Shown here: piece after piece, positions 8,461-50,521 of the stretch
Layout of the letters: each line of letters starts with the position of its first letter
Numbering within the stretch: position 1 is the stretch's first letter
NCBI RefSeq assembly: GCF_001039275.2
Contig: NZ_CP030117.1
Span: 676,001-740,000, forward strand
Origin: Brevibacillus brevis
GTDB lineage: Bacteria > Bacillota > Bacilli > Brevibacillales > Brevibacillaceae
Direction of reading: 5' to 3'
Length of the DNA: 64,000 nucleotides
Notes under the pieces: generated by a model
What the model saw: only the letters and a program-made list of their open reading frames with translations
The model's database searches: none
Told to the model about the DNA's origin: nothing
Position numbers and translations under genes: made by a program

Positions 8461-9609
8461 TTATTTGGTATAAACGGCGGACAAATTGAGCCCAAAATGG
8501 ACATGCGTCGTTTTATCTACGAGTGCTGGATCGATTTCTCGAGAAATCCGCGTCCAGAAAACTTGTTCTTTTCCTGCGGCAGTATCCGGCAGGGTGAAAG
8601 AATCGCCCCACGTGCCGGGCACACCGTTTTGGTCTACGGCGACATCTACAAGCCGCTTGTACTGATCGGTACCTGCATAGGAAGTGAGAACACCTTGGAT
8701 ACCCGTAAAAGTTCCATGAAGCATGGTATTTCGGGCGATCATTTTTACTTCCTTGTACTGGCCTTGGAGCATATGACCGAGAAACTCCTCTGTGTTGTCT
8801 TGCAGGTGGACCTCATTTCCTTCGCCATCGATAAAAAAGAGGGTGGGAGAGGGGGAAAAGTCGTATTCGTCGCCGCCCCACATTTTCATCTGGTCGCTGG
8901 AGCTAATCGTTGTTTTGCCGTCTGCTTCCGCAAAACGAAGAGAGCCAGTGAAAGGGATAGGACGCTGAGTCATATCAAATTGAATGGATGTTTGGCTTGT
9001 CCGACACGTTTTGGAGTCGACAGCGGCTCCTGTGGAATCGAGCAGCTCCACGCGGGTGCCGGGAGAGAGGTTTGAAACAGTGAGAGTAGGGAGGGAGAAA
9101 ACGCGGACGTGTTCCATGTCCAGATAGTCGTCTGTAGCGCTGCTGTTGAGAAACATACCGATTTTGGGAGCAAGGCGATTGAATTCTTCCGAACCGATGA
9201 TGTGCCAGATGACGCCGTCCTCGGACCAATAAGCGGTGTAGGTATTGTAGTCGCGTACTAGCCGGAGCCAGGGGAAGGTTTTCGCAGTGCCTTGCGTTGC
9301 ATCGTAATATTCTTCGACGTGGAAAAAGTCATTGTGGTTTATGAAGACAGTCAATCCGCCTGTGCTTCCGGAAGCTTTCGGATTGTATGAATTTTTCATA
9401 TCGAGGACGAATTGCTTCACGGGGGTAAGTGTGTCTAAAAAGAGTTGAAGTGGCTCAGCTCCGCCTTTTAAACGGAGAGAGCCTGGTGCGTCTGTTAAAG
9501 ACCACCTTGAAGAATCATTCGGTGTCATGTTCCACTTGGAATCGAGGGTAAGAGAATCGAAAGAATCCTCGAAGAGAAACCCCGATTTACGCCGAGAAAC
9601 TACACTCAT
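8461..9609 (-). CDS. tail/baseplate-associated protein with concanavalin-like (DUF1349-like) N-terminal domain
   Basis: This 382-residue protein has an N-terminal beta-sandwich at about residues 10-170 (FEDSFDSLTLDSKW, VLDMKN, TAYWSEDGVIWHIIG, IGMFLNSSATDDYLDMEHV), the pattern of concanavalin-like or DUF1349 lectin/glycosidase-associated folds. The remainder (about 175-382) contains a short beta domain and a C-terminal sandwich but no recognised catalytic residues. ATG 9609 is preceded by AAGGAGGTAC. Its place between the giant proteins and the fibre genes suggests a linker or adhesin at the tail tip. Function beyond carbohydrate-surface binding is not assignable. Confidence 0.6.
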   Translation of the reverse strand: MSVVSRRKSGFLFEDSFDSLTLDSKWNMTPNDSSRWSLTDAPGSLRLKGGAEPLQLFLDTLTPVKQFVLDMKNSYNPKASGSTGGLTVFINHNDFFHVEEYYDATQGTAKTFPWLRLVRDYNTYTAYWSEDGVIWHIIGSEEFNRLAPKIGMFLNSSATDDYLDMEHVRVFSLPTLTVSNLSPGTRVELLDSTGAAVDSKTCRTSQTSIQFDMTQRPIPFTGSLRFAEADGKTTISSSDQMKMWGGDEYDFSPSPTLFFIDGEGNEVHLQDNTEEFLGHMLQGQYKEVKMIARNTMLHGTFTGIQGVLTSYAGTDQYKRLVDVAVDQNGVPGTWGDSFTLPDTAAGKEQVFWTRISREIDPALVDKTTHVHFGLNLSAVYTK

Positions 9610-9621
9610 AGAAGTACCTCC

Positions 9622-12600
9622 TTACGTAAATAGCCATATTCGTTTGCCAATCACACATGCCTCAGGGCGTTGTTTCCAGATCGCCAGCAAGCATTTGATC
9701 AGTGCTTCGACGCATTTGTCTCCGCTGCCGGGATCGCAGTAGGGGGTGACGAGGACCTTGTCGCAGATCCAGTTGGTTAGTTTGATGTAGTCGATATTGC
9801 AGTAATCCCAGACCTCTGTTGTACCTTTTGCTGTAAATACCCAGGTGAAAGTATGTCTTCCTCTATCTACTTGAAACACAGGAGATCCACCAGCATTTGT
9901 ATAGCTGCCTCGAAGAACGCCATCAATGAAAAAGTCCAATTGGCTATTAAAAGGAGAGGGGACAATTGTCCAATTTTCCGATGCCTTGAAATTTCGTAGC
10001 TTGAACGTAGTCAAATAACTTTTACCAGTCCACTCGCTTATTTCGCCTTTTTGTTCTGTAGTAATTTCAACGCGTACTTTGGTAATGTTGGGTTTGGATA
10101 GGTTTTCGAGGGTAAAGTCGTAGTTTCCGGACAGATTAACAGTAGTGTTTTGAAGTTTGTTGCCTGTTTGATCATAGATGTTTACCTGAATATTGCTGCC
10201 ATTGCATCCACCCATCCATATTGGGACGTTGGCTGTTGTTTTGAAATTGTAGACAAACGCCGATGATTTAGGGAGGGGGAGTTTATCGTGGAAGGTATAT
10301 TCTCCATTACTTAATCTCGCTTCGGCATCGCAATCCGTATAGAACTTGATTCGGATAGAATAATTTTTCCCTTCGTCAGAATCATTGGTAATGGCAGCCT
10401 TAATTGTTTGGATATCATCAAAATCAGAGTATTTCTCTTCGGATAGGATGGTTCCGTTGTCTTCGTCGTGAACTCTTACGCGGACATAGGCATCACGGCA
10501 TGGTTTTGATTTTTTACTTTGCCTGATCTCGATTGTATCGATCCAACACCAGGAGTCGTCAGGTATGATGACTTGAGTTGGTGGAGGGAGATTGGGTTCA
10601 TATGGAGATTGGTCTCTTGGATAAGTGGAGCCTAGTTTATCGATACAATATTTAGACCACTTTTCTACCGCTTTTCCTTGACTTAGAGTAAAGACACCTC
10701 CGTTGTCATCTAATCCTCCCCTCTGGCTTATTCCCTTTAAAAGCTTGTAATCAAAACGATAGTGTTTACCTAGAGGGACATCGTACTCTATGAAATGTTC
10801 AGCCTGTCCTGTAGGACCTGCTGATAAGGGGTAGGAATCAATAATTCTTCGATTGGTTATATCCGTTACAGTAACTTCTACTTTAGTGTCGTCATAGTTG
10901 TTGCTGAATTTACGGTGTTTATTGGATGTTAATTTGAGATTGCGAATAGCGATGTAATAGGGGATACCATCTTTTCCAAACGTTGAGTCTTTAAAAAAAG
11001 TTCGTCGGACGTCAAAGACAATGCAGTAGGGACCTGGCTTATTACAATAAAATTTTTTGGGACCATGGTGTTTAGCGCCGCTCCAATCTTTTATTTTATA
11101 GGGATTCTGTATGTTCCCTACATTCATCCTCGTATTACCTGTGGCTGTGATTGTTGGGGTATTCCAGCCAATACCTCTACGTGTTACAAATAGATGAGAA
11201 TTCGTTTTAGGATCATATTCCGTCGCTATTGCGTAACCATATAATCTTCTCGTAGAGACTTGTCGCCCATTTTTATTACCTTGTTGACTATCTAGTTCGT
11301 AACAATAGTATTGATAGTCAAACTCAACTTCTAAATGTTCGTTCCCTACACTGTCAAATACAACGTACCAATAAGTAGAGGAAATGTGTTTATTTGCAAC
11401 CTGTTCGGATGTTATCACATAGGTATTGTCATAGTGTATCGGTGTCTTTTTAACAGCGTCAGGATGAGAGCGGAAAACCCATTTGACAGGGACATCGAAT
11501 GCATTTGGAACATTATAGCCTTTACCAGCATAGATTTTTAATCGCTCTGAATATTTGGCTGTTGTAATGGGAGAGTTATTAATATGCCGTCTGATTGTAA
11601 AACCATCTTTTTCGGTACCTTGAGCAATGGGTACTGAACCATCATAGTAAATCTTAATGGGTCTATGAGCATTGGTGTTCCAGGCTACTCTAAACTTTCT
11701 TTTGGATTCACGAACTGGCTGAGGGTCATAGTTAACACCGTATTCAGCCAGATAAGTCTCTGTTCCAGCCGGATAGCACTGCTCGCCACCTGTAGAAGGA
11801 TCTGGTTTCGTCGGCGGCTCATAATCGGAATCGGGGTCCTCAACCTCAACTTCATCGTAATCTTCAAATACCCACTTTAACGTTTGCTTTCCTCGGCTAA
11901 GTGGAACTACTACCGTATGACCAAGAGGATCACTTGTGCTTTTGTTTTCAGACCAAATTAACCGATTGTTACTATATAAACTGAGATATTCGTAGTCTGA
12001 AAAGGAACCGCCATATTCGAACTTTACGAACCCCGGTTCATCCAAATCTATATTCTCGACATAAAGGCGGTTCCGGGTACCGTCTTTATTCTCGACCTTA
12101 AGTACGCCGTCTCCTCCGTGACCTTCTCCATGATAACGAGTAACGATATCTTCCCATTCCCAATTGTCATCGACACGAATTTCACGTGCATAATTATCGC
12201 GATCATTGAAATCCTCAGAGAAAATTACTTCATATTCATCTTCCTCTGATTCATCAACGAGACTTTTCAGCTCCAGTTCTTCCGAAAAGTCAAAGGAGGA
12301 ACCAGGGTTCAGGAAGATGTCGTAAACATTTTCTGCACGATCTTCTTTTGTATAACTCGAGTTTCTGTCTGTTTTCCATTCCCGGTCTACATCAATATAG
12401 CTGCTCATTGGTGTTTTATGTTTGCCGCTTGACGAGCGATAAGAGAATTCACCAGGATAAGTTTCTTCAAGGGGTTCTTCTGTCAGGTCATCTTGAATTC
12501 GAAAAATAACGGTATTGCGGCCTTTTACTAATGGGAGCTGTACATTTTTCTCCCATTCATCTCCCGTTGCTTCTAGTTGTTGTACGTCATTGATAATGAC

Positions 12601-44778: not shown

Positions 44779-46479
44779 TTAGTTTTTCAAGGGAAGGGTT
44801 ACGCTCCAGTCGACATCTTTGTTTTCTATCAATTGCTCTTTAATTGTAAAAGTCAGTTCTTTCGGGATAGCTTTCAGATCTTTCACCAAATCGAGTGGAC
44901 CGCTCAAGACAATATTGCCTTTTGCATCTCTTGTGAGTGAGCCTTCGAAATAGCCGATGTATTTATTGCCATTTTCATCAACTGCTGCAAATTTATTTAC
45001 GTCTGCAACGCCTGGTGCCAAGGTTGCATCCAGTTGCATCGTTGCATTCATTCTCTTCTCGTTCCGAATCGTTTCTTCTTTTACCGTAAAATTCGAGAAG
45101 GTGAACACGTTTCCATCATGTTCTGTTGTGACGGGCTTGTTTTTCATCTCATCAATGGACAGCTTTTGCTCAAAGTCTGCGGGAGTGGTTTGATAGGTCG
45201 CTCCCACTCTAAAGGTCAGGTCTTTATCCGTTGGCAAGGAGTGAAATGTGAGAAAGTTAACGATTTTGCCTGTAGGTGAGTCATCGACAATACGGACATC
45301 ATAGTTTCTGGCTACATTTTTGTAATATGGCTGCGGGTACCTCTCCTTGTTCCCTCGGTCCATTTCGCTCCATTTCGCAAGCACCTCTCCCGTATCATCC
45401 ACAATTTCATAGGTAAGATCCTGAGAGGTATACTCTGCCAAGGTGTTCTCGATGACGAATTCCATCTGGCCTGGTGTCACCATGACTTGTTTGAGATCAA
45501 TCAATTCGCCATTTGGAGCAGTGTATTGTTTATGGATGGGAACAATTTTTGTGTCTTTTTTCGCTTTGGAAATGTCAATCGGAAAGGTAACCTTCCATTT
45601 TCCGTCAAGGCCTTCGACATCCTTGATCACAAGATCGATGATCAATTCATCTGGAATCTCGCTCGTATCACTAAAAAACGTTTGGATGGGACGACTGAGC
45701 ATAACTAGCTCGCTCTGTCCTTTTACTGATATCAAATCATTATGCCCGTTTTGAAATTCCTCATCGTAGTTTGTATACGTCTTGCCATCCTTATCTGTTA
45801 TTTTCAATTCATAGGATGTACCTTCGTCCTGCAAAACACGAGAGAACAGATCCTCAATTGGTTTTCCATTCTGATCCTTGATGGTAAATAGAATTCTGAC
45901 ATCCCTTGAGTCCGCCATGACTTCTTTTACTTCAAGGGTCATTCCATTATCGACAGCTTTCAGATCCACTTTTTTGTTATAGCCTTCTTGAAGGCCACGT
46001 TGGATGAGGAGGTTTGTGGAGGCTAGTGTTTCAAAAAGGCTGCTCTCTTGCGTCTGCTTCATCTGAGGTTTGATGGTAGAGGCATACAAACCATGTACAT
46101 ATGTTGCAAAAGAAGGCGAGGTAAGTGTTCCAAAATAGACGACTGCTGCTATTCCTGCTACGGCGATCGTTGCTTTTTTCACGATATCCAGACTCCTTTT
46201 TTTCCAATTGATTTTTTTTTGTAATTTTTGTCTTTCTGATCGTTTCAGAACGTGTATAGGGTAAGGGGGAAGATTCGCCATGATGTCATGAATGACTGTT
46301 TCGGACGGTTCGGCTGTCGCCAGTGATTCTTCCGGGTCCTCCAGCTCATCCAGCTCCTGCTTCAACTTACGCTGGCAATGACGGCATTCTTCCAAATGGG
46401 CGGCCATGACCTCGGCTTCCTCTGGCTCAAGAAGGTCGTATAGATACAAAGCAATTTGCCCTTTATCTAAGCATTTCAT
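44779..46479 (-). CDS. anti-sigma factor with N-terminal zinc finger and DUF4179 extracellular part
   Basis: This 566-residue single-pass membrane protein has a cytoplasmic anti-sigma zinc finger at its N-terminus (MAAHLEECRHCQRKL, with H-x3-C-x2-C). A membrane helix near residues 104-122 (ATIAVAGIAAVVYFGTL) follows, then a large extracellular beta-rich region with DUF4179-like and DUF5643-like domains. It overlaps by four bases the sigma gene upstream, the standard layout of an ECF sigma/anti-sigma pair. It should hold its sigma factor inactive until an envelope signal acts on the outer domain. The specific signal is unknown. Confidence 0.85.
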   Translation of the reverse strand: MKCLDKGQIALYLYDLLEPEEAEVMAAHLEECRHCQRKLKQELDELEDPEESLATAEPSETVIHDIMANLPPYPIHVLKRSERQKLQKKINWKKRSLDIVKKATIAVAGIAAVVYFGTLTSPSFATYVHGLYASTIKPQMKQTQESSLFETLASTNLLIQRGLQEGYNKKVDLKAVDNGMTLEVKEVMADSRDVRILFTIKDQNGKPIEDLFSRVLQDEGTSYELKITDKDGKTYTNYDEEFQNGHNDLISVKGQSELVMLSRPIQTFFSDTSEIPDELIIDLVIKDVEGLDGKWKVTFPIDISKAKKDTKIVPIHKQYTAPNGELIDLKQVMVTPGQMEFVIENTLAEYTSQDLTYEIVDDTGEVLAKWSEMDRGNKERYPQPYYKNVARNYDVRIVDDSPTGKIVNFLTFHSLPTDKDLTFRVGATYQTTPADFEQKLSIDEMKNKPVTTEHDGNVFTFSNFTVKEETIRNEKRMNATMQLDATLAPGVADVNKFAAVDENGNKYIGYFEGSLTRDAKGNIVLSGPLDLVKDLKAIPKELTFTIKEQLIENKDVDWSVTLPLKN

Positions 46480-47033
46480 AGATGAAAGTCCCCCCTTTGC
46501 CCTGCATGCCCGATTGCTTCCCTGAGCTTGTCTTTTCCACGAGACAGGCGCGTCCGCACAGTACTCGACGGAATCGACAGCCGATGGCTGATTTCCTCAC
46601 AACTCAATGATTCGAAGTAGCGCATTTCGAGGACGATCCGATACTTTTCTTCGACGGACATCATCCTTTGACGCAACAGGCGCTGACCCTCCTTATTCAG
46701 AAAGGCAACCTCCGGTGTATGGCTATCCACTGGTTCTATCTCTTCGCTGGCGGTGAGCTGCTGCTTTCGCTTGCGTTTACGCAGCTCGTCCAGACAGTGG
46801 TTGGCTGCTATCCGGTACAACCATGCAGAAAAATCGTAGTTTGTTTTATATTCTGGTAAATGGTAGTACGTCTTGATGAAAATTTCCTGCACGATATCTT
46901 GGGCATCTGGTGTGTGTCCCAGCATTTTACGAAGAATGGAACTTACTTTTCCGTGGTATCTGGAAATGATCTCGGAGTAGGAGTCTTTGTTTCCTTGCAA
47001 GACCCGCCCGATGATCACTCGATCTTCCTCCAT
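46476..47033 (-). CDS. ECF-type sigma factor
   Basis: This 185-residue ECF sigma factor shows region 2 (DSYSEIISRYHGKVSSILRKMLG...DAQDIVQEIFIKTYYHLP, WLYRIAANHCLDELRKRKRK) and region 4 (SVEEKYRIVLEMRYFESLSCEEISHRLSIPSSTVRTRLSRGKDKLR). Start ATG 47033 follows GGGGGAG; a longer frame to 47144 is rejected as it lacks a ribosome site. It is cotranscribed with the anti-sigma gene. A hairpin-like dyad with A/T tails (about 47048-47085) lies in its leader, which may attenuate it. Confidence 0.88.
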   Translation of the reverse strand: MEEDRVIIGRVLQGNKDSYSEIISRYHGKVSSILRKMLGHTPDAQDIVQEIFIKTYYHLPEYKTNYDFSAWLYRIAANHCLDELRKRKRKQQLTASEEIEPVDSHTPEVAFLNKEGQRLLRQRMMSVEEKYRIVLEMRYFESLSCEEISHRLSIPSSTVRTRLSRGKDKLREAIGHAGQRGDFHL

Positions 47034-47308
47034 TTGTGCTCCCCCTAGGCAAAAAAGGCTCGCTGCGCAGCTTTTCCTTTTTTGATCAAACAAAAGTGAT
47101 CTTGGTGAAATTTTCCTATTACATACTAGTACTACGAATCCCAAAAGGAAAGCGTCCCAAAATCAGGGCGATTTTCCAAAAACGATATAAATCTTTTCCA
47201 AAAAGAAGGAACTTTAAGAATTTTAATAGAAAATGGAAGGAAAATCCTATTGCGTACGAAATAAATAGTCAAATATTACCAAAATATATAATATTTTGCT
47301 AATATTTG

Positions 47309-47337
47309 TAGATTTCTGTAAATTCATGAAATATAAT
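47309..47337 (+). promoter_or_regulatory. probable promoter of the peptide gene
   Basis: The intergenic stretch 47034-47379 is AT-rich and has no gene. It contains TATAAT at 47332-47337 with TAGATT 17 bases upstream (a weak -35), 43 bases before the 18-codon peptide ATG. The -10 box is perfect and the -35 poor, so the promoter may need an activator. Confidence 0.55.
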
Positions 47338-47379
47338 GAACTTGTCTTCATTTTCGATCATAGAGAGGAGGAACTATCC

Positions 47380-47436
47380 ATGAAAATCCAAGCGAAAAAA
47401 GTTGAAAGCGTTCGCACTACTGCAGTAGCAGCTTAA
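47380..47436 (+). CDS. 18-residue peptide, candidate RiPP precursor
   Basis: The 18-codon frame encodes MKIQAKKVESVRTTAVAA. It is supported by GAGAGGAGG, a perfect ribosome site eight bases upstream, by a TATAAT promoter box, by an attenuator-like terminator directly after the stop, and by the E1-type enzyme gene downstream. This matches the microcin C layout (short mccA, hairpin, mccB). Unlike MccA peptides (seven residues ending in Asn), this is longer and ends in Ala-Ala. The Lys-rich front (KIQAKKVESVR) could be a leader read by the RRE domains, and TTAVAA the modified core. That assignment is inference. It could instead be a short leader/attenuation peptide. Confidence 0.7.
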   Translation: MKIQAKKVESVRTTAVAA

Positions 47437-47446
47437 TTCTCTTAAG

Positions 47447-47482
47447 AAAAGGGGGAGTAGCACACGAGCTATTCCCTTTTTT
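47447..47482 (+). terminator. intrinsic terminator/attenuator between peptide gene and E1 enzyme gene
   Basis: GGGAGTAGC pairs with GCTATTCCC (one G-U) over ACACGA, flanked by AAAA and TTTTTT. Partial read-through would give much more peptide message than enzyme message, as known for mccA-mccB. Confidence 0.85.
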
Positions 47483-47530
47483 CATCTAAAATGAGCCGGG
47501 TTAGCGAACCCCACCATTGGGAGGAGTTTT

Positions 47531-48685
47531 ATGGAACGTCGTCCTTTATTTAAACCAGTGCATCCCGTCTATGAAGTGACAGAGAAGATGATCCGCTTGG
47601 GGGAGGCTCCTGGCTATACCTTCGAATTGGAAGACGAGAATGGGTCCATCCGCAAGATGATCAAACTGATGGATGGCACTCGTACTGTCGGTGACATACA
47701 TACATTATTGGTTGTCGATTACCCTGAAATTACGTATGAAGAAATATCGGAAGCAGTGGAATCACTGAGTGGCTTGGGCTTCCTGATGGATCAGGCGAAG
47801 GAAGAGGCTTCCGTCCTGACTTCGGAACAAAAGGAAAGATATAAAGCGAATATCCGCTACTTCTCCTTGTTTACCGATCTCAATCAAAGTCCAAGCGAGC
47901 TACAGGAACAGGTAAGTAGAAAAAAAGTGACGATCTTAGGGATGGGTGCCTTTGGCTCTACGCTACTGGTCAATCTGGTAGGAGCCGGAATCCAGCATAT
48001 CAAGCTCGTGGATTTTGATAGAGTAGAGCTCAGCAATTTGAACAGGCAAATGGTCTTTAACGAGCGTGATATTGGTCGCTTGAAGGTGGAAGCGGCACGT
48101 GATTTCATCGGAAGGCTTCATTCTGAGGTATTGATTGAAACGGAGACGATGCAAATCAAGTCCAGTGAAGACGTGGAGCGGGTTATTGCCGGTAGTGACC
48201 TCGTGATGCTTGCAGCCGATCAGCCCTTTTTCTTTTTGCAGAGATGGGTGAATCATGCCTGCACCAAGCTGCAAATCCCGTTCATTGCTGGTGGATTCAA
48301 CCTCATCGAAGGACAGTTCTTCATGGTAGAACCGGGCAAGACAGGCTGTATCGACTGCATGCATTTGCATCGTTCTAGACAGATTGAGGACTATCCGCAG
48401 TTGATCCAAAGGCTGCTCGATACCAACTTTATTCTGCCTACCGCCACCATTGCGCCTAACACCATGATGATTACGGGAATGATGGCTTCCGATGCAATCA
48501 GGTATTTGACAGGAATTGCTCCGGTACAATCTGCGGGCAAATTTATCATTTTCGATTTCAACACGTTGGAAAAGAGCGTGTTTTTTGAGTGGGAGCGAAA
48601 TGAAGCCGAATGCCCGACTTGCGGAGGTGGCAGCGGAGCGGAGCCGATTTTTCATATCAAGAGAAGTGAAGTGCTCGCAAAGTAA
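47531..48685 (+). CDS. MccB/ThiF-like E1 adenylating enzyme with N-terminal PqqD-like domain
   Basis: This 384-residue protein probably adenylates the C-terminus of the adjacent peptide. Residues about 30-90 form a PqqD/RRE-like winged helix (IKLMDGTRTVGDI, ITYEEISEAVESLSGLGFL) as at the MccB N-terminus. The E1 core has the nucleotide loop GMGAFG (137-142), DFDRVELSNLNRQ with N171-R172-Q173, and a zinc tetrad C273/C276 (CIDC) and C361/C364 (CPTC). The ATG has GGGAGGAG upstream. The zinc and ATP motifs are intact. Neighbours are the peptide gene before and the membrane protease after. A catalytic Cys typical of ubiquitin E1s is not evident. A plain ThiF/MoeB role is less likely because of the RRE and context. 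Confidence 0.8.
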   Translation: MERRPLFKPVHPVYEVTEKMIRLGEAPGYTFELEDENGSIRKMIKLMDGTRTVGDIHTLLVVDYPEITYEEISEAVESLSGLGFLMDQAKEEASVLTSEQKERYKANIRYFSLFTDLNQSPSELQEQVSRKKVTILGMGAFGSTLLVNLVGAGIQHIKLVDFDRVELSNLNRQMVFNERDIGRLKVEAARDFIGRLHSEVLIETETMQIKSSEDVERVIAGSDLVMLAADQPFFFLQRWVNHACTKLQIPFIAGGFNLIEGQFFMVEPGKTGCIDCMHLHRSRQIEDYPQLIQRLLDTNFILPTATIAPNTMMITGMMASDAIRYLTGIAPVQSAGKFIIFDFNTLEKSVFFEWERNEAECPTCGGGSGAEPIFHIKRSEVLAK

Positions 48686-48721
48686 AGAGTCGTTCCTGTA
48701 AGAGAGGAAGGTGTCTGTCAA

Positions 48722-49960
48722 TTGAATATCTCGGGAGATAGCATTCTCAAGATGCACCCGCTTGCGCGACGGGCGGAAAACGAGGAAGAGATCCTCATTG
48801 GGCGAACAGATATCAGCAATTTCATTGTGCTTCCGGCCATTGGTGTCGAGATCATCGATATGCTGGATGAAGGGAAGAGCATCAATGAAGTCGCGACGAT
48901 CATGGAAGAACAGTTGGGCGAACCGGTAGATGTGCTTGACTTTGCTCAGGATTTAATTGCTTCCTATCAATTTGTGTATATGGCAGATGGAGAAGTTGTC
49001 AACGAACCAGTACCAGTAGTGGATCATTTCTCTTGGATCAAGCAGGGTACGGGTCAGTTTTTCTTTAACCGTGTTGCCTTTGGATTATACGGTATCTTAT
49101 TTGTCACAGGTCTTTTGATTTGTGTGTTTACGGGCAAGTATATCCCGGTCTATTCCGATATTTTTGTTTCTTCTTCCGTGACGGTTTCGGTAGTGGTTTC
49201 TTTTTTGGCCACGTGGGTTTTTCTGTTTTTCCATGAGATGGCCCACTTGATGGCGGCTCGATCATTGGGGATCGGTAGTCGTATCGGTCTGGGGCATCGA
49301 CTTGTTTTTGCCGTAGCAGAGACGAACATGTCCAATATTGTTCTCGTTGAGCCACAGCGCAGATACAGGGCGTTTTTGGCGGGAATGTCCTGGGATGCGA
49401 TGTTTATGGGAATCGGTGTGATTCTGTTGTTTGCCAATGATCAAGGCTGGTTGACGCTTGTGCCCTTCATGGAAGCATTCATTCGTATGCTGAATGTGAT
49501 CCTGCTCATGGCTTTGGCCTTTCAGTTCATGGTTTTCATGCAGACCGACTTGTATTACGTGTTGGCAACCAAGTTCCAATGCTCCAATCTGATGGTGAAT
49601 ACACGCCTGTTTCTAAAAGCGAAATTCCGTTCCTTGACGCAGGATGAGCAGGAGGAATGGGAGTACGTAGCCGACCATGAGAAAAGAGTCATCCGCTGGT
49701 ATAGCTGGGTCTACTTGATTGGATCGGTGTGGGGAATCTGGTTCTTTGTCCAGTATCAGCTACGCATGGCGGTTGATTTCATTTGGATTATCGCCGACGA
49801 TATGAAAAACGCTCCGCTTCACTCGTGGGAGTTTTGGGACGGCATCCTGTTGATCCTGTTGGTTCTGGTTCCGTTTCTCATATTAGGCTGGTCGTGGATG
49901 AGAGCCTATCGACAACAGAGAAGCGAAAGAGAGCGAGCAAAATCCTTGCAGGGCACATAA
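48722..49960 (+). CDS. membrane HExxH metalloprotease with PqqD-like N-terminus
   Basis: This 412-residue protein has a PqqD/RRE-like domain at residues about 20-95 (LPAIGVEIIDMLDEGKSINEVATIMEE), then about six membrane helices. The first two bracket H171-E172-M-A-H175 (HEMAHLMAAR), a zinc HExxH motif, and D276 (FMQTDLYYVL) is the likely third ligand. It resembles YydH-type or M50-like peptide zinc proteases of RiPP clusters. It would cut the leader or export the product. TTG 48722 follows GAAGGTG at good distance. Its RRE suggests it recognises the same peptide as the E1 enzyme. No ABC exporter or immunity gene is adjacent. Confidence 0.8.
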   Translation: MNISGDSILKMHPLARRAENEEEILIGRTDISNFIVLPAIGVEIIDMLDEGKSINEVATIMEEQLGEPVDVLDFAQDLIASYQFVYMADGEVVNEPVPVVDHFSWIKQGTGQFFFNRVAFGLYGILFVTGLLICVFTGKYIPVYSDIFVSSSVTVSVVVSFLATWVFLFFHEMAHLMAARSLGIGSRIGLGHRLVFAVAETNMSNIVLVEPQRRYRAFLAGMSWDAMFMGIGVILLFANDQGWLTLVPFMEAFIRMLNVILLMALAFQFMVFMQTDLYYVLATKFQCSNLMVNTRLFLKAKFRSLTQDEQEEWEYVADHEKRVIRWYSWVYLIGSVWGIWFFVQYQLRMAVDFIWIIADDMKNAPLHSWEFWDGILLILLVLVPFLILGWSWMRAYRQQRSERERAKSLQGT

Positions 49961-50035: not shown

Positions 50036-50521
50036 ATGAACCCGATGATCCAAAATATTATTCATCTGCGAAAAGAGGGGCATCTGGACGAAGCGATCCA
50101 GCTTGCCCTTCAGCTCGTTAGCCAATCCCCGACTGATCCTGTCGCCCATTATCAATGTGCGTGGTGCCACGACGCAGCCGGAATGGAGAAGGAAGCCGTT
50201 CCCTTTTACGAAAAAGCGATTGAGCTCGGACTGTCTGTCGAAGAAGACCTGCAAGGGGCATTACTCGGTCTGGGCAGTACGTATCGCACGCTGGGACAAT
50301 ACGAGCAGGCAGCAGCTACGCTCGCGAAGGGGATGCAGCAGTTCCCCGATGATCGTTCTTTTCCGATTTTTCTTTCCATGGCGTATTACAATCTTGGGAA
50401 GCACCACGCAGCCATGAATCTCCTCCTGAAAAACCTCGCAGAAACCTCAAGCGATCCTACGATTTTGGCCTATCAAAAAGCGATTCTGTTCTATGCAGAT
50501 GACCTGAATAAGACGTGGTAG
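50036..50521 (+). CDS. tetratricopeptide repeat protein
   Basis: This 161-residue helical protein consists of about four TPR units (HLDEAIQLALQLVSQSPTDPVAHYQCAWCHDAAG; YEKAIELGLSVEEDLQGALLGLGSTYRTLGQYEQAAATL; FLSMAYYNLGKHHAAM), a TPR_5-like protein common in Bacillus-type genomes. ATG 50036 has AAAGGAAGTG. It is 75 bases after the protease gene and could be cotranscribed, but no function in peptide maturation follows from the fold. A general scaffold role is possible. Confidence 0.8.
   Translation: MNPMIQNIIHLRKEGHLDEAIQLALQLVSQSPTDPVAHYQCAWCHDAAGMEKEAVPFYEKAIELGLSVEEDLQGALLGLGSTYRTLGQYEQAAATLAKGMQQFPDDRSFPIFLSMAYYNLGKHHAAMNLLLKNLAETSSDPTILAYQKAILFYADDLNKTW

Follow-up and report, generated by a model that had tools for sequence, protein, structure and literature searches.

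We analyzed a window of 64,000 nucleotides from Brevibacillus brevis (NZ_CP030117.1, positions 676,001–740,000; the window means this whole stretch, and the coordinates below are positions within it). A compact cassette on its forward strand consists of a very short precursor gene (47380–47436), a hairpin (47446–47483), a gene for an E1-like adenylating enzyme (47531–48685) and a gene for an M50-type membrane protease (48722–49960). The cassette is very probably a biosynthetic locus for a ribosomally synthesized and post-translationally modified peptide (RiPP), with an E1-like enzyme and a protease that bears a RiPP recognition element (RRE). Judging from its sequence features, the locus is a new subfamily of the RiPPs made by ThiF-like adenylyltransferases (TLATs) and not a microcin C locus in the strict sense; what is new here is the precursor family, the partnership with an RRE-fused site-2 protease and the likely chemistry.

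The precursor gene encodes the peptide MKIQAKKVESVRTTAVAA, in which a 14-residue leader, MKIQAKKVESVRTT (codons 1–14, 47380–47421), is followed by the 4-residue core AVAA (47422–47433) and a stop codon. This assignment rests on the conservation of the leader against a variable core, on a codon test and on co-occurrence with E1. The initial annotation was right to describe an 18-codon gene with a good Shine-Dalgarno (SD) sequence, the ribosome-binding site AGGAGG lying at 47366–47371 (+), 8 bases upstream of the ATG. In all 10 same-genus loci with E1 the peptide is identical; the DNA is identical in nine of them and carries four synonymous changes in the other. Across species, the conserved 14-residue leader is joined to a variable core of 4–9 residues, and pairwise codon differences among four species numbered 31 synonymous and 3 non-synonymous in the leader, compared with 2 synonymous and 19 non-synonymous in the core. 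A chance open reading frame (ORF) was rejected by this codon test. The leaders contain VRTT, SPT or APT motifs, and Thr14 is the last invariant position (15/15 Brevibacillus-type and 5/7 other precursors).

The cores are small, mostly apolar and species-specific. The 18-mer is not a long MccA but a 14-residue leader with a 4-residue core, and the C-terminal Ala-Ala noted initially is confined to the window's species group, beyond which the C-terminal residue is V, T, Y, C, S, A or I. Among 22 unique precursors tallied (the G208/G225, G190, G203, G146 and G236 peptides being left out), none ended in Asn, no core contained Trp, Lys or a Glu pair, and three cores contained Cys. The window's peptide has no Cys, and two cores, AVAA in the window and AAAGIAAV in one B. 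dissolubilis copy, lack any nucleophilic side chain. NCBIfam scans of six and three precursor-like peptides returned no family.

The precursor and the E1 gene occur together. In a phylum sample of 398 genomes searched for E1, the window's own genome was the sole match at 1e-60, and association was assessed in 39 genomes of the family, 16 with a full-length E1 and 23 in which the ThiF proteins are all more distant. We found the DNA pattern of the leader in 14 of the 16 E1-positive genomes and in 0 of the 23 E1-negative ones (hypergeometric value 8e-9, which ignores kinship), and a reversed control pattern gave one match (G021). The two E1-positive genomes missed by the pattern (G029 and G170, both B. 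laterosporus) carry precursors elsewhere in the genome. In a survey of 31 listed E1 matches, judged for a nearby leader-like short ORF and a nearby M50 gene, 23 had such an ORF nearby and three had it elsewhere in the genome; two had weak candidates only (G190 and G203), G080 had none, and two could not be judged (G207, because of Ns, and G253, because of a contig end). Among the 23, G032 lacks a clear SD sequence, the TTG-started ORF of G146 was found by eye, and in G236 the M50 gene is preceded by three identical copies in tandem. It had been proposed beforehand that homologues lacking a conserved upstream short ORF would speak against the prediction; such a lack was looked for and was not borne out. 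Of the 31 E1 matches, 26 have an M50 gene nearby, while G339:C34, G146:C6, G190, G203 and G080 lack one.

Precursor copies are numerous in some species and are partly remote from the enzymes. In B. dissolubilis, nine tandem precursor copies stand ahead of two E1 genes. Three laterosporus-type E1 loci (G029, G170 and G139) have no adjoining precursor; the B. laterosporus precursors form arrays of two or three copies of MKIQAKKMEKVAPT-LANTCV, with a single copy ending in -LVGSSV, and the G139 precursor, MKIQAKKVEQVSPT-LMTSV, is located about 178 kb from E1. These laterosporus-type arrays and the single copy (L125, L126, L127 on the reverse strand, and L114) lie far from E1 and M50, each with its own ribosome-binding site. 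Distant precursors also include MKIKLKKVENLIPT-MQVPHAS, MKIKIRKTEVLTPT-QIGPSV and MKITVKKVEKLAPL-MIVPHAS. In the L085 three-copy array (about 9280–11950, reverse strand), identical tandem copies of MKKIKVKVLPKVGLPANRANT precede the RRE-M50 gene, and a 276-residue ORF of no assigned family precedes E1. Some E1 relatives without a nearby M50 gene adjoin apparent transporters, read by eye as being of the MFS (L083, L084) or ABC (L087, L091) type.

The E1-like enzyme (47531–48685, +; 384 residues) matches PF00899 with E 4.3e-53. A profile of six homologues searched against the PDB gave PaaA (5ff5) as the best match (E 1.1e-40, residues 3–351, RRE included) and MccB as the next (E 1.9e-37). A structural model (pLDDT 93.4) searched with Foldseek ranked MccB first (1.4e-25, TM by target 0.82) and PaaA 22nd (1.1e-23), and also matched MoeB and ThiF across the catalytic part. 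We assign an RRE to the enzyme because the matches to PaaA and MccB cover that domain. R172, Q173, K185, D230 and the four cysteines C273, C276, C361 and C364 are invariant in 38 E1 homologues. The annotation of an MccB/ThiF-like protein with an intact zinc tetrad is supported, and the model resembles MccB and PaaA along its whole length. The spacing 172-185-230 (13 and 45 residues) equals that of R167-K180-D225 in EnfB (PMC12250964). The enzyme combines an RRE with a ThiF domain containing the ATP-binding Arg, Lys and Asp that mark the TLAT RiPP enzymes.

The protease gene (48722–49960, +; TTG start) encodes 412 residues, and its model reached a pLDDT of 92.1. The zinc-binding motif HEMAH (residues 171–175, 49232–49246, +) has H171, E172 and H175 invariant in 34 homologues, as are T275 and D276 of the TDxYY motif; Asp276 (49547–49549, +) is the likely third zinc ligand. 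An HExxH motif and a distant Asp within membrane helices are the features by which site-2 proteases are recognized, and the protein has both. Pfam matches to PqqD and Peptidase_M50 each reached only E 0.026, searching PDB sequences with a profile of the M50 protein gave TbiB1 at E 0.078 and RseP at E 0.49, and relatives are annotated as 'PqqD family protein'. A Foldseek search with the model returned nothing at E ≤ 0.001 (the TbiB1 RRE came first, with E 0.16); the statement on the fold therefore rests on comparison of the model, in which residues 7–90 resemble the lasso B1 RREs and residues of about 100–356 resemble RseP and SpoIVFB. On that basis, the earlier description of an HExxH membrane protease with a PqqD-like domain is supported. 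The protease shares with RseP and SpoIVFB the HExxH motif, the Asp and a similar membrane fold, but differs in the lasso/PqqD-type RRE fused in front.

TLAT RiPPs are an accepted kind (PMC12250964), and comparison with their known members places the present family apart from each. Pantocin A (PaaP/PaaA) provides the best PDB sequence match for E1; however, it needs a Glu-Glu(-Asn) core (PMC12250964), which AVAA does not contain, and the partner in the window is an RRE-M50 protease. Microcin C7 (MccA/MccB) provides the best fold match and the same row of a tiny precursor, a hairpin and an E1 gene, whereas the window's family has a 14-residue leader, a variable core and no C-terminal Asn, and a scan of 11 neighbouring genes showed no MccC-type exporter, as had been noted initially. 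The initial comparison with the mccA-hairpin-mccB layout stands for the gene order; PaaA is nearer by sequence and MccB first by fold. Strict membership in the microcin C type was rejected on the missing Asn and exporter.

Enterofaecin (EnfA/EnfB), for which a backbone imide has been proposed, is similar in its precursor of about 20 residues, its RRE-ThiF enzyme and the absence of a need for a conserved side-chain acceptor (PMC12250964), but EnfA has (V/I)RKA and WWIVI motifs and transporters, in contrast to the VRTT, SPT or APT motifs, the lack of Trp and the RRE-M50 partner here. The GRC type forms a Glu-Cys thiolactone with radical SAM partners, whereas the window's peptide has no Cys and no radical SAM gene was found among the 11 neighbours. 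The Ind cluster (IndA/IndF/IndP) is likewise a minimal RiPP system with an RRE-ThiF enzyme and a leader protease (PMC12150305); however, its Trp-Ile indolylamide needs a Trp, its protease is of the M16 type and is not reported as RRE-fused, and a transporter is present there. The thiazole/oxazole-modified microcin (TOMM) type places a YcaO protein beside the ThiF-like protein, whereas no YcaO cyclodehydratase was found among the 11 neighbours, the remainder of the genome not having been searched. The IndF study surveyed 27,400 RRE-ThiF fusions (PMC12150305), so the present family may already be part of that network without a name of its own. Judged from the listings of the collection searched, no paper describes this precursor family. 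The text of PMC12250964 does not contain the word Brevibacillus, the genus was not met in the parts of PMC12150305 covered, and a search with four leader strings gave a single match, an unrelated cancer paper.

The family shows general marks of a RiPP, namely a short precursor with a conserved leader and a variable core, and a modifying enzyme with an RRE beside it, the two adjoining in 23 of 31 loci. In the pathway that we propose, the RRE of E1 would bind the leader, and the ThiF domain would use ATP to adenylate the core's C-terminal carboxylate, as suggested by the conserved Arg, Lys and Asp and by reports on MccB, PaaA, GrcB and IndF. The activated C-terminus would then be captured, most likely intramolecularly and with loss of water (−18 Da). 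At the membrane, the RRE–site-2 protease would recognize the same leader and cut near Thr14, freeing a peptide of about 4–9 residues. Two RREs, one per enzyme, plausibly read one leader, and the modelled RRE on each enzyme favors this suggestion of the initial annotation; its suggestion of a C-terminally modified peptide also appears likely. Since no tallied precursor ends in Asn, no tallied core has Trp, three have Cys, and two cores lack any nucleophilic side chain, the known TLAT side-chain chemistries (Asn N–P bond, Glu-Glu, Cys thiolactone and Trp indolylamide) cannot be general here. As none of the AVAA side chains is reactive, capture should involve a Thr hydroxyl, that of Thr13 or of Thr14 (giving a macrolactone), a backbone amide (giving an imide) or, once the leader is removed, the new N-terminus. 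Thr14 may be the macrolactone acceptor (ring TAVAA in the window) or a mark of the cleavage site.

On balance we somewhat favor a RiPP cassette in which E1 activates the C-terminus for intramolecular capture, and other outcomes were weighed against it. The absence of a side-chain acceptor in the window's core, the E1 fold itself and the ability of EnfB to use outside amines (PMC12250964) would also agree with transfer of the activated peptide to an outside acceptor (an amine, a lipid, a protein or another peptide), which would leave the peptide with an amide, ester or tag at its C-terminus, as is usual for E1 enzymes. However, no acceptor or E2-like gene was recognized by eye beside the loci, whose neighbours vary, and we consider this outcome improbable. 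Still less probable is a peptidyl-nucleotide of the microcin C kind, with AMP or another nucleotide left on the C-terminus: although MccB has the nearest fold and the gene order is that of mccA-mccB, MccB needs for its N–P bond (PMC12250964) the Asn that is missing from every tallied precursor, and the neighbours scanned included no exporter or tailoring gene. A role as a peptide pheromone, in which the site-2-type protease frees a 4–9-residue signal whose C-terminus E1 caps or closes, concerns function and is compatible with intramolecular capture. The shortness of the cores, their small and mostly apolar residues, their species specificity, the maturation of SHP pheromones by the site-2 protease Eep (PMC13361665) and one related RRE-M50 locus adjoining a MASE12-HD protein all agree with it, but we regard it as unlikely; no receptor gene was recognized by eye beside the E1 loci (receptors elsewhere in the genomes were not searched for), and the window's TPR gene is not conserved beyond its species group.

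The notion that the short ORF serves only as an attenuator for the E1 gene, its peptide being no substrate, draws on the hairpin directly 3' of the ORF. It is hardly credible in view of the tandem copies with varied C-terminal ends, the identical copies far from any E1, the three tandem copies before an M50 gene, and the conserved leader with its variable core; a peptide acting solely as an attenuator was rejected on the tandem and distant copies. Three of the parts described initially are less firmly supported. The PqqD-like N-terminus ascribed to E1 is recovered as an RRE through PaaA and MccB, whereas Pfam matched PqqD only with E 0.2. The claimed TATAAT promoter is an exact match (47332–47337, +), conserved in 10/10 same-genus loci as a likely −10 element of the precursor, but no −35 element was found at a distance of 16–18 bases and a scan of the forward strand gave no sigma-70-type pair there. 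The claimed terminator is a stable hairpin, but a simple terminator rule failed to flag it.

This terminator- or attenuator-like hairpin (47446–47483, +) has 16 pairs, a 6-base loop and a folding energy of −23.7 kcal/mol (z −6.7); in a test covering the window's hairpin only, 0 of 200 shuffles were equally stable. Folding of the stretch between precursor and E1 gave a stable hairpin in 12 of 13 loci, the window included, with G208 and G225 being nearly the same sequence; in some of the hairpins a clear run of T at the end is missing. As the hairpin sequences differ between distant loci, the layout is conserved and not the sequence. By partial termination, the hairpin would lower enzyme expression relative to the precursor. 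The exception is B. humidisoli (intergenic fold −3.5 kcal/mol), whose locus (L017/L038) looks decayed: E1 has an in-frame stop, the M50 gene lacks an open N-terminal part, and the precursor has no clear ribosome-binding site. An Rfam scan of 46–51 kb gave no matches.

The bonds that RiPP enzymes of the E1 kind form at the peptide C-terminus are unusual, and the side-chain-based enzymes each need a residue that is absent from many cores here; the reaction must therefore use the backbone, an outside acceptor or a Thr. The variability of the cores suggests that E1 is tolerant and so useful for producing small cyclic peptides. Leader removal by a site-2 protease with a fused RRE would be novel, and precursors far from their enzymes show that gene-neighbourhood mining misses products. 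The occurrence of the RRE-M50 family beside other short-peptide genes, without E1, suggests that it removes leaders generally and that its partners can be exchanged. More speculatively, there may be a mini-RiPP superfamily in Bacilli that shares the RRE–site-2 maturation peptidase and changes its modifying partners; its E1 branch would close cores without reactive side chains by a reaction as yet undescribed for this enzyme class, and precursor arrays, partly far from the enzymes, would give each species its own very small peptides, perhaps signals.

Beside the cassette, a divergent ECF sigma factor and a DUF4179 anti-sigma gene lie upstream (44779–47144, −), and a small TPR gene follows M50 (50036–50521, +). 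Neither was retained as part of the system: the more distant loci have other upstream neighbours, and a search of 12 loci, several of which end within about 3 kb of M50, detected the TPR gene in 3, each belonging to the window's close group. Other RRE-M50 genes, without E1, are preceded by short CWWC peptides such as MKIRKLKKVKATCWWCGWKWY (L139, L140, L141 and L143); in L139, the only one of these scanned, the gene before the CWWC peptides encodes a MASE12-HD protein. A second kind of RRE-M50 gene is preceded by KTExVKLT peptides such as MKKITVQKTEPVKLTSVANTMYDCTCEQA (L138, L142 and L146) and followed by a protein of roughly 730 residues, a TPR protein in L138, the one scanned. L138 is from a same-genus genome, in which this further possible mini-peptide system lies about 66 kb from E1.
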